From an uncultured Cocleimonas sp. (GTDB lineage: Bacteria; Pseudomonadota; Gammaproteobacteria; Thiotrichales; Thiotrichaceae), in assembly GCF_947495625.1 (NCBI RefSeq), contig NZ_CANLZW010000037.1, positions 1-48,995 of the forward strand: 48,995 nucleotides of DNA, read 5' to 3'. The position numbers and the translations under genes are program-made. The notes below the pieces were generated by a model. It was not told where the DNA came from, did no database searches, and worked only from the letters and a program-made list of their open reading frames with translations. The first letter of the stretch is position 1, and every line of letters begins with the position of its first letter. Positions 3,985 to 22,261 of the stretch are shown here, piece after piece.

Positions 3985-5349
3985 ATGAGTAAAACAAAAC
4001 AATCAATATCGATTATCGGATCTGGCGTAACAGGATTGTCTGCGGCTTGGTTATTGAATGAAAAATACGATGTCACACTTTTTGAGAAGAACGATTACCT
4101 TGGTGGACATACCCATACTCATGATGTCTTAGAAAGTGATACAAAACTGGCTATTGATTCTGGTTTTATTGTCTACAACGAAAAAAATTATCCTAATCTG
4201 GTTGGTCTTTTCGAAGAGCTAGAGGTGAAGACGCAGGCTACCGATATGTCTTTTGCATTCTCTATGAATCAGGGAGAACTTGAATATGCGGGTTCTGGAT
4301 TAAAGGGTATGTTTGCTCAGCGTGGCAACCTAGTGAGCATTAAACACTGGCGATTGATTCAAGAGATTATTCGTTTCAATAAAACAGCTCATGCCGAATT
4401 ACCAACGTTAGAAAAAGATAAATCCAGTGAACTATCTCTGGGTGATTTCCTTAAACAGCATAATTTCTCCAAAGACCTGCAACAAAACTATCTACTTCCG
4501 ATGGGAGCTGCAATATGGTCTTGCCCTGTAGAGATTATGAATACTTTCCCTGCTCATAGTTTCTTACGATTTTTTGCTAATCATGGATTGATTGATCTGC
4601 AAAACAGGCCTCAGTGGAGAAGCGTGGTTGGCGGTAGTCGTGAATATATTCGCAAGATGATGCCTACTTTAAGCACTGAAATCTGCATTAAGGGCGGTGC
4701 TGAATCAGTAAGTCGTACTACCAATAAGGATAAGGGTAATGTTGAGGTAATTAGTGACGGCAAGCGTTTCTATTTCGATCAAGTTATTTTTGCCTGTCAT
4801 GCCGATGAAGCATTAAAACTGATTGATCAGCCTAGTGAAGATGAAATAGGAATATTAAGTTGTTTCAAATATCAGGAAAATATCACTTATCTACATACCG
4901 ATGAAACGCTAATGCCCAAACGCAAAAACGCGTGGTGTTCCTGGAATTATTTAGCTCAGGCAGGCACTGATGCAGAAGATGGCTCAGAAGAAAGCAAGGT
5001 TACAGCAACCTACTGGATGAATAACTTACAGAAGATTAAAGCAGAAAAAAACTATCTGGTAACACTCAACCCTTATCAGCAGTTAGACGAGACCAAAGTC
5101 ATTAAAAAAATGACCTATCACCATCCCGTTTTTGATCGTGATGCCATTTATGCACAGTCCCGATTGGAGGAGTTGCAGGGTGAAAATAATTGTTGGTTTT
5201 GTGGCAGTTACACGGGCTATGGTTTCCACGAAGATGCTTTAGCTTCATCGGTCAAAATCTGCGAAAAACTGGGTGTTATCGCTCCCTGGAAAGAATTAGC
5301 AACAGTAGACATCACTGAAGAAAAAGCAAAGATTGGGGGTTCTCAATGA
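3985..5349 (+). CDS. FAD-dependent oxidoreductase (amine-oxidase-like, COG2907)
   Basis: A flavoprotein of about 454 aa. The N-terminus has the dinucleotide-binding motif SIIGSGVTGLSAAWLL followed by FEKNDYLGGHTHT, as in amine-oxidase/phytoene-desaturase-like enzymes of COG2907. The C-terminus (FCGSYTGYGFHEDAL) closes the FAD site. I prefer the ATG at 3985, which has GGAGAG 11 bases upstream, over a GTG at 3976. It overlaps the DUF1365 gene by ATGA and is followed by a CFA-type methyltransferase, the standard order in this family. A role in oxidising or desaturating acyl chains of membrane lipids (as proposed for furan fatty acid formation) is inference. Confidence 0.85.
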   Translation: MSKTKQSISIIGSGVTGLSAAWLLNEKYDVTLFEKNDYLGGHTHTHDVLESDTKLAIDSGFIVYNEKNYPNLVGLFEELEVKTQATDMSFAFSMNQGELEYAGSGLKGMFAQRGNLVSIKHWRLIQEIIRFNKTAHAELPTLEKDKSSELSLGDFLKQHNFSKDLQQNYLLPMGAAIWSCPVEIMNTFPAHSFLRFFANHGLIDLQNRPQWRSVVGGSREYIRKMMPTLSTEICIKGGAESVSRTTNKDKGNVEVISDGKRFYFDQVIFACHADEALKLIDQPSEDEIGILSCFKYQENITYLHTDETLMPKRKNAWCSWNYLAQAGTDAEDGSEESKVTATYWMNNLQKIKAEKNYLVTLNPYQQLDETKVIKKMTYHHPVFDRDAIYAQSRLEELQGENNCWFCGSYTGYGFHEDALASSVKICEKLGVIAPWKELATVDITEEKAKIGGSQ

Positions 5350-20066: not shown

Positions 20067-20096
20067 AAAAAACCTCCTAAAGTAGGGGGGTGACCT
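20067..20096 (+). repeat. G-rich hairpin repeat, copy 4
   Basis: AAAAAACCTCCT, loop AAAGT, then AGGGGGGTGACCTT. CCTCCT can pair with AGGGGG (one G-T pair). It lies 37 bp upstream of hslV, after the cytochrome terminator, so it may lie in the hslV leader or promoter. Confidence 0.85.
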
Positions 20097-20132: not shown

Positions 20133-20666
20133 ATGGAACAATATCGAGGAACAACCATACTATCCGTACGTCGCGATGGAAAAGTAGTGATTGGTGGAGA
20201 TGGTCAAGTCTCATTAGGTAATACCATTATGAAAGGTAACGCGCGTAAAGTGCGTCGTCTATATAACGACAAAGTCATCGCGGGTTTCGCTGGCGGAACA
20301 GCAGACGCATTTACTCTGTTTGAAAAGTTCGAAGCTAAACTACACGAGCACAATGGCAACCTAACGCGTGCCGCCATCGAGCTCGCAAAAGACTGGCGTA
20401 CCGATAGAGGTATGCGTCAATTGGAAGCATTGCTCGCAGTAGCAGACAAAGAAACATCATTGATCATTACGGGTAATGGTGATGTCATCGATCCAGAAGA
20501 TAACTTAATCGCGATAGGTTCAGGCGGACCATTCGCGCAATCAGCAGCGCGTGCGTTACTTGATAATACAGAGTTGTCGGCGCGTGAGATTGTTGAGAAG
20601 GGGTTGGGTATTGCGGGTGATATATGCATATACACAAACCAGAACCGCACAATCGAAGAATTATAA
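20133..20666 (+). CDS. hslV: ATP-dependent protease peptidase subunit HslV
   Basis: A 177-aa peptidase that forms the double hexamer of the HslUV (ClpYQ) protease. The catalytic Thr is Thr7 in [10 protein letters not shown], exposed after removal of a short propeptide. Other family blocks are [39 protein letters not shown] and the C-terminal [10 protein letters not shown]. It degrades unfolded proteins with HslU. The gap to hslU is 233 bp and filled by repeats, whereas the two genes normally sit a few bases apart. Confidence 0.97.
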
Positions 20667-20793
20667 TTTAGAGCATTAACCTTTCGCCCTAGCTCGGCGT
20701 TAACATCGTGCTCGAATGGTCACGTATTTAACATACGCTCACATTCTCCGCTCGATGTTGCCTTGATCTAGAACGAAATCTAAACGCTCTAAA
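20667..20793. repeat. 127-bp imperfect palindrome (MITE-like) between hslV and hslU
   Basis: The element begins TTTAGAGC and ends GCTCTAAA, and its two halves are complementary over most of their length. Matching blocks are TTTCG with CGAAA, CTAG with CTAG, AACATCG with CGATGTT, GAATG with CATTC, and GTAT with ATAC around a central TTAAC loop. It starts at the base after the hslV stop. It contains no reading frame of note. The design fits a miniature inverted-repeat or ERIC-like non-autonomous element; I see no other copy in this window and no clear target duplication. Confidence 0.82.
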
Positions 20794-20813
20794 AGATAAT
20801 TACAGTATTTTAT

Positions 20814-20846
20814 AAAAAACCTCCTAAAAGTAGGGGGGTGTGTTTT
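20814..20846 (+). repeat. G-rich hairpin repeat, copy 5
   Basis: AAAAAACCTCCT, loop AAAAGT, AGGGGGGTGTGTTTT. The left arm is the same as in copy 4, 750 bp upstream. It lies 54 bp before hslU, next to the 127-bp palindrome. Confidence 0.85.
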
Positions 20847-20899: not shown

Positions 20900-22261
20900 A
20901 TGTCAATGACACCTAGAGAAATTGTTCAAGAATTAGATAAGCACGTTGTAGGGCAGCATGATGCCAAGCGTGCTGTTGCGATAGCTTTGCGTAATCGCTG
21001 GCGTAGACAGCAGCTTGATGCAGATTTGCGCCAAGAAGTAACGCCGAAAAATATTCTAATGATCGGCCCAACGGGTGTGGGTAAAACTGAGATTGCCCGT
21101 CGTTTGGCGAAATTGGCGAATGCGCCTTTTATCAAGGTTGAAGCGACTAAATTCACGGAAGTGGGTTATGTCGGTAAAGAAGTTGATTCGATAATACGCG
21201 ATCTTGTCGATGTGGCGATTAAAGTGACACGCGAGCAAGAAGTTGAGAAGGTCAAGAACCGTGCAGAAGATGCTGCAGAAGATCGAGTGTTGGATATTCT
21301 AATACCACGACCAAAAGCAGAAGAAGATGCGAACTGGTTCGGTATGGATAGTGACGGCAACGAAACAGATAAGAAGCCTGTAGAAGATAGTTCGACACGC
21401 CAGAAATTCCGTAAGAAATTACGCGAAGGTGATCTTGACGATAAAGAAATCGAAATTGAAGTTTCTGCCAGCCCATTAGGTGTAGAAATCATGACGCCTC
21501 CTGGAATGGAAGATATGGCGAGTCAGTTGCAAGGCATGTTCCAGAACTTGGGTAACAACAAGACCAAGAAGCGTAAGCTGAAGATTAAAGATGCGCTGAA
21601 AGAGTTGGCTGAAGAAGAAGCGCATAAGCTGGTTAATACCGAAGATCTAAAGCTTAAAGCACTGGAAAATGTAGAGCAAAACGGCATCGTATTCCTTGAT
21701 GAAATCGACAAAGTGATTCAAAAAGGTGAAATGGGTGGCGCGGGAGTTTCTCGTGAGGGTGTGCAACGTGACCTACTACCTCTTATTGAAGGTAGCACGG
21801 TAACGACCAAGCACGGTATTATCAAAACAGATCATATTTTGTTTATTGCTTCAGGCGCTTTCCACATGGCTAAGCCTTCTGATTTGATTCCTGAATTACA
21901 AGGTCGTTTACCGATTCGCGTAGAACTTGGTGCATTAACGGCGGATGACTTTAAGCGTATTTTGACTGAGCCAAATGCATCACTGACTGAGCAATACCAG
22001 GGGCTTCTACTAACAGAAGGCGTTAAAATAGAGTTTACTGAAGACGGCATTCAACGAATCGCAGAAACGGCGTTTCAGGTGAATGCACAAACTGAAAACA
22101 TTGGCGCTAGACGCTTGCATACCATCGTAGAAAGATTGCTCGAAGAAGTGCTATTTTGCGCACCTGATTGCACAGAGGCAGTTACTGTCGATGCGAAGAT
22201 GGTTGACGATGTTCTGGGCGAATTGATTGAAGATGAGGATTTAAGCCGCTACATTCTGTAG
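20900..22261 (+). CDS. hslU: ATP-dependent protease ATPase subunit HslU
   Basis: A 453-aa AAA+ unfoldase, partner of Hsl[26 protein letters not shown] opens the protein; the Walker A motif is [10 protein letters not shown] (near residue 55) and Walker B is [10 protein letters not shown] (near 250). The intermediate domain (about 110-235) is acidic and variable. [16 protein letters not shown] is the sensor-2 region, and the C-terminus DLSRYIL is the tail that inserts into HslV to open it. Length is normal for the family. Because of the interposed repeats it may be transcribed or translated separately from hslV. Confidence 0.97.

Follow-up and report, generated by a model that had tools for sequence, protein, structure and literature searches.

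An ERIC-related hairpin between hslV and hslU of an uncultured Cocleimonas: a possible domesticated MITE with mobile relatives

A long hairpin separates hslV from hslU in the window, the 48,995-nt stretch of an uncultured Cocleimonas sp. analysed here; all features described lie on its forward strand. The hslV gene (20133–20666; NCBIfam HslV, E 7e-91) ends with a TAA stop codon at 20664–20666, and its last codons and stop sit in or at the 5′ arm of the structure. The 127-nt core follows at 20667–20793 and is an imperfect palindrome whose limits are TTTAGAGC (20667–20674) and GCTCTAAA (20786–20793). Its predicted fold reaches −40.5 kcal/mol, whereas 200 dinucleotide shuffles average −21.99 (sd 3.55) and none of them folds as well (z −5.21); the covariance model R1 described below matches 20652–20808 with 156.4 bits. 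These results confirm the hairpin, its limits and its start directly 3′ of the hslV stop, as proposed in the initial annotation. The 127-bp palindrome described there stands as the core, but the true base is predicted to be wider and to reach into the stop codon: a 5′ outer arm AATTAT (20659–20664), which ends in the first base of the hslV stop, pairs in the predicted fold with a 3′ outer arm ATAATT (20796–20801). Downstream, hslU occupies 20900–22261 (NCBIfam hslU, E 2e-205), and the intervening gap measures 233 bp, exactly the expanded distance first reported. The premise that the two genes normally lie a few bases apart holds only in part: at the 46 of 80 hslV loci where our script placed both ends, gaps range from −8 to 232 (median 36).

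A G-rich repeat lies beside the element at 20814–20840. Sequence searches place it outside the element, in a separate dispersed family. Scoring covered 40 of 794 candidates of this family, and its blastn matches in the same genome number at least 42. Within the window this repeat also occurs at 160–190 and 20067–20095, combining a constant GTAGGGGGGTG part with a variable CCT-type left arm, and it is sometimes arranged in facing inverted pairs (L009, L011, L019, L026). We considered and rejected an intrinsic terminator (GC stem followed by a T run), for which the three overlapping matches, against 2.0 expected, all fall in this adjoining repeat. An Rfam search of the whole window at the gathering score returned tRNA alone, with no structured-RNA match at the hairpin, and a plasmid search with the element as query gave no match.

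The element belongs to a repeat family. Seven blastn matches in its own genome, the window copy counted, answer the suggested genome-wide search and show that it is not unique; similar matches occur in 9 of 12 genus genomes (its own included) and in none of 27 genomes outside the genus. R1, a covariance model built from 25 genus copies, finds matches in all 12 genus genomes and in 20 of 63 family genomes (E ≤ 0.01). At E ≤ 0.001 it also matches 77 of the 369 class genomes sampled, representing 59 of 272 genera; some of the weaker matches there may be subfamilies or hairpins arising by chance. The closest named hslV match comes from a MAG labelled Thiotrichaceae (97%). Aligning 92 copies over a wide span gave a poor consensus fold, which is left out of the results. 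Shorter subfamilies carry the same core: one of about 137 nt lies directly 3′ of ftsZ in genomes G000 and G003 (L204, L243), and another of about 100 nt follows a different gene in G000, G003 and G010 (L250, L252, L253). A gene that we take to be gor, from its 5′ end, is apparently flanked by two elements (L194 and L158; G000:C60:3479-3635 and 5048-5203), with a partial third copy (C60:5218-5281) beside L158.

The core of this family resembles that of ERIC, also called IRU or RU-1, the 127-bp imperfect palindrome of enterobacteria and Vibrio. When applied to 19 loci with enterobacterial ERIC, R1 gives 15 matches up to E 10; twelve (12 of 19 loci, E ≤ 0.013) are full length, fall at the ERIC and lie on the expected strand, and the best of the remaining three has E 0.24. 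A second model, R2, was built from 13 ERIC copies only; it recovers 9 of the 32 element loci, each time at the element and with E ≤ 0.0027. Its best match is the hslV copy of G001 (E 2.2e-10), and the window copy is among the 23 of 32 loci that R2 did not report; E-values from both models are rough, and the homology to ERIC applies to the family as a whole. Since R1 recognises ERIC repeats and R2 recognises nine of the element loci, a distant relationship between the element family and ERIC is well supported, in fold as well as in sequence. In both, the strand defined here as sense has the weaker fold. ERIC ends in TATACCC and duplicates TA at its target, whereas the window copy ends in TTTAGAGC and GCTCTAAA and its mobile relatives have GTAAC ends with 8-bp duplications. 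The lineage differs as well. ERIC ends are not found here, and we therefore name the element an ERIC relative rather than an ERIC. The divergence of ERIC among Gammaproteobacteria is said to be treated by Zo (2011).

Several relatives retain the hallmarks of transposition. We analysed the ends of 124 copies among the matches listed, 72 from the genus and 52 from outside it. GTAAY...RTTAC ends are kept in 26 of them, comprising three from G006, a doubtful one from G004 and 22 from outside the genus, and the 8-bp flanks agree at six or more positions in 22 of these 26 GTAAC-ended copies, compared with 4.5% of swapped pairs. Six of the eight genomes searched contain the exact end pattern, each 6 to 68 times, and it is absent from the other two, G000 and G003; a reversed control gave none. 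Such GTAAC-ended elements are numerous in G224 (68 exact matches), G334 (53) and G138 (39), and a GTAAC...CAGCTCA end variant is also present in G334 and G138. From their ends and flanks, the relatives outside the genus look mobile, and the G006 copies look recent.

A candidate source of this mobility is the IS66 transposase (PF03050), genes for which are present in four of five other-genus genomes searched and absent from all four genus genomes searched, the element's own among them. IS66 genes in G138 end in GTAACTACTCA, whose first 11 bases are the same as the MITE end; beyond these the IS and MITE ends differ. At the G138 IS66 loci L281 and L282, the end GTAACTACTCACCCCC lies some 115 nt past the family match; at the G334 locus L316 the end GTATCTACTCACCCCC has one mismatch. 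The same scan found no such end at the larger IS66 loci L313 and L314. An IS66 transposase with matching ends thus occurs in genomes that also carry the MITE (G138, G334). Published IS66 ends begin with GTAA in the section of one report that gives them (PMC12888890), and a portion of another describes two IS66 elements with 8-bp repeats (PMC3281130). GTAA ends and 8-bp repeats are likewise found in the mobile relatives of our element, as in the IS66 family and its MITEs; the window copy differs in having no recognisable GTAAC ends or 8-bp duplication, and its genome in having no detected IS66 gene. The search for a transposase with the same ends was therefore fruitful in other genera and unsuccessful in the element's own genome.

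The hslV site itself records an older history. We found hslV in 10 of 12 genus genomes, with the element directly 3′ of its stop codon in six (G000, G003, G004, G011, G001, G005) and absent after it in four (G002, G009, G010, G007). The G007 locus (L138) and L055 share one different sequence in the gap after hslV, and neither has a detected hslU start adjoining hslV. The initial annotation had proposed a mobile element and held that uniqueness together with conserved position would point instead to a fixed regulatory structure. Our results divide these alternatives: copies are multiple, and the position is shared among genus genomes. A mobile origin is upheld by the multiple copies and, beyond the genus, by the 8-bp target duplications of relatives and by IS66-type transposase genes with matching ends. 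A recent insertion at this site is not, because the element follows hslV in six of ten genus genomes and no IS66 transposase was found in its own or the three other genus genomes searched. The hslV-site copy of the window's genus is old and apparently immobile.

Copies at orthologous sites are well retained. In comparisons beyond G000–G003, element identity is 73–90% in 13 of 14 orthologous pairs (65% in one lysS pair), and four-fold sites of the upstream genes match at 32–48% in 13 of 14 (59% in one). Across seven G000–G003 pairs, identities are 80–99% for the element, 69–91% for four-fold sites and 71–99% for the next 90 nt. These 90 nt are a weak control, because their conservation roughly equals that of the element at several G000–G003 sites, and at larger distance their alignments contain many gaps. 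With G000–G003 left aside, orthologous copies have a mean identity of 0.786, compared with 0.718 for paralogous ones. The best match is the orthologue for 14 of 22 copies; the window copy is not one of them, its closest non-sister match being the copy at the presumed ilvC site rather than its hslV orthologue.

The copies of the genus also share a striking placement relative to stop codons. We scored all 56 genus copies of at least 75 bits among the R1 matches listed, using mechanical open frames of at least 90 codons rather than annotated genes. A stop codon falls within the 5′ arm in the sense orientation only in 41 copies, in antisense only in none, in both in two and in neither in 13. G006 contributes 12 of the 56 (five sense, seven neither); the remaining 44 comprise 36 sense, no antisense, two both and six neither. 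Outside the genus, a selection of 36 copies of at least 75 bits among the matches listed is mixed, with nine sense, seven antisense, one both and 19 neither. The sense bias of the genus over the outside copies is significant on copies (Fisher 4e-5) and when 19 genus sites replace the genus copies in the comparison with the 9:7 outside copies (0.0017). The bias is likewise absent from 18 Dickeya and Samsonia ERIC loci (no sense stops, three antisense), a further difference from ERIC.

The 19 sites consist of 18 protein clusters outside G006 and one site cut by a contig end, where the upstream frame, read by eye, is presumably the C terminus of DnaK and dnaJ follows. NCBIfam identifies upstream genes that include hslV, gor, lysS, ftsZ, leuC, purA, ahcY, groES and a class III alcohol dehydrogenase, and assigns no family to 3 of the 16 upstream fragments tested (window proteins aside); ilvC and some other upstream genes are putative assignments. 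Downstream partners include hslU, groEL, dnaJ and leuD, so that the element lies within the pairs hslV–hslU, groES–groEL, dnaK–dnaJ and leuC–leuD, among others. The six copies outside G006 that lack a sense stop include the dnaK site and two (L194, L196) that adjoin the start of an opposed gene, which we take to be gor. The placement of the genus copies at stop codons, mostly in a single orientation, suggests that they may now help tune gene expression.

The arms show further signs of correspondence. At 16 sites, the outer arms pair better with their own partners (−6.19 kcal/mol) than when swapped (−3.85 kcal/mol), and none of 20,000 permutations does as well; for the hslV site alone the match is weak, and 5 of 120 permutations equal it. 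This match extends into the coding end of the upstream gene. The stem pairs are almost only Watson–Crick. With two G-U-dominated columns left out of each set, G-U is no commoner than A-C in the stem columns, at 26 versus 33 in the genus and 15 versus 25 outside it, and selection on RNA pairing therefore gains no support from this test. Dropping three more genus columns with recurrent A-C changes the count to 24 versus 13, a post hoc choice on which we do not rely. Of the two strands, the sense strand folds less stably in 49 of 55 copies from the genus, in 32 of 33 from outside it and in 12 of 12 ERICs. In a model calculation, covering the 13 nt after the stop, as a ribosome would, raises the mean unpaired probability of the 3′ arm from 0.31 to 0.71 and leaves the inner stem unchanged.

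Among the explanations considered, we tentatively favour the segment as a fixed, domesticated ERIC-related MITE that acts as a stop-codon-coupled mRNA element and has mobile relatives with IS66-type ends, a reading we hold with confidence just short of evenly balanced. In its favour are the model matches with ERIC in both directions, the duplications and IS66-type ends of the relatives, the sense-stop bias, the outer arms matched copy by copy, the retention at orthologous sites and the modelled opening of the 3′ arm. Against it stand the lack of a G-U excess, the weaker fold of the sense strand, the unbiased Dickeya and Samsonia ERIC loci, the weak arm match at hslV, the non-orthologous closest match of the window copy, the absence of the element after hslV in four of ten genus genomes and the similar conservation of the next 90 nt at several G000–G003 sites. 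For its mechanism, we infer that the element would be co-transcribed with hslV and hslU and act at the mRNA level. While terminating on hslV, a ribosome would cover the outer 5′ arm, freeing the A-rich 3′ arm for ribonuclease attack; at low translation the stem would close and protect that arm. In this way translation would shift the level of hslV mRNA relative to that of hslU, resembling what portions of the reviews relate for Yersinia 3′-end ERICs. Those portions describe orientation-dependent effects of ERICs at 3′ ends: in Yersinia, ERICs reduce the upstream mRNA compared with the downstream one by way of an RNase E site located in the 3′ inverted repeat (PMC2229807, PMC10969869). The anatomy of our element, with the stop in the 5′ arm, the sense orientation and an A-rich 3′ arm, would suit that RNase E model. 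An effect on the HslV:HslU ratio, as the initial annotation suggested, would be plausible by analogy with these Yersinia accounts. De Gregorio (2005) is the key paper on Yersinia ERIC and reportedly gives further details of this effect.

A serious rival, though an unlikely one, is that old MITE copies simply persist at gene ends as functionless fossils, tolerated because the weaker-folding strand does little harm. The retained orientation is indeed the weaker fold in 49 of 55 copies, there is no G-U excess, and the element is evidently dispensable, since it is absent after hslV in four of ten genus genomes. Such fossils would not be expected to remain 73–90% identical in 13 of 14 orthologous comparisons whose four-fold sites are nearly saturated, or to keep outer arms matched copy by copy. 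We think it improbable that the hairpin simply stabilises the 3′ end of the upstream mRNA, as REP hairpins do, uncoupled from translation. A long hairpin directly 3′ of a gene in an operon-like pair has the right form, and a larger yield from the upstream gene would suit DnaK, whose gene precedes dnaJ. However, the kept strand is the weaker-folding one, which argues against a plain stabilising hairpin, and a ribosome terminating at a stop codon inside the stem would open its base.

The matched arms might also be a mutational by-product, in which one arm is rewritten from the other by template switching within a long quasi-palindrome, so that pairing persists without selection. Correction on DNA would account for nearly exclusive Watson–Crick pairs, for A-C being as common as G-U and for an arm match that runs into the coding end. 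As a sufficient explanation it is decidedly improbable, for it leaves unexplained both the sense bias and the retention of copies against near-saturated synonymous change, although it can operate alongside the favoured domesticated element. Least probable by far, and disfavoured, is a MITE that remains mobile and whose target preference directs it to positions just after stop codons. In its favour are the recent-looking G006 copies and the 19 sites beyond G006 where a stop codon falls in the arm. Against it are the lack of IS66 transposase in all four genus genomes searched, the absence of any exact end pattern from G000 and G003, and the mixed orientation of the outside copies, 19 of 36 of which lie away from stop codons. 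Integron attC sites and REP/RAYT elements were considered on general anatomical grounds alone and dropped given the ERIC and IS66 evidence.

Other long palindromic elements compare with this one by description. QMITE2 of Coxiella burnetii is portrayed in part of one paper as 150–190 bp long, with 7–11 nt direct repeats, lying mainly in 3′ untranslated regions with short gene-end overlaps (PMC5896051), a likeness for which we claim no homology. YPAL, or RU-2, of Yersinia is likewise a long palindromic miniature element, enterobacterial and of about 168 bp according to passages in two papers (PMC2229807, PMC2267715), set here beside our 127-nt core from descriptions. Searches of open-licence full-text literature returned nothing joining ERIC with IS66 and MITE, ERIC-like elements with Gammaproteobacteria, or ERIC elements with Thiothrix; for repeats at hslV/hslU, none of the open-licence papers returned appeared to treat such an element.

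A 2024 review places ERIC in two families, Enterobacteriaceae and Vibrionaceae (PMC10969869); these findings widen the range of ERIC-type elements past both and make IS66 a candidate transposase family for mobile ERIC cousins. A broader proposal, possible though on balance doubtful, is that ERIC is one branch of a gammaproteobacteria-wide hairpin superfamily moved in other branches by IS66-type transposases. Within the genus, where no transposase was found, copies would have become a dispersed, one-orientation, stop-codon-coupled mRNA regulon over chaperone and housekeeping operons (hslVU, groESL, dnaKJ, leuCD and others). The family offers a natural before-and-after comparison, in which likely mobile copies lack orientation bias and those kept by the genus are strongly biased. 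If the proposed mechanism is true, a mobile repeat would have been repeatedly turned, within one genus, into a termination-sensing device that adjusts the gene ratios of operons.
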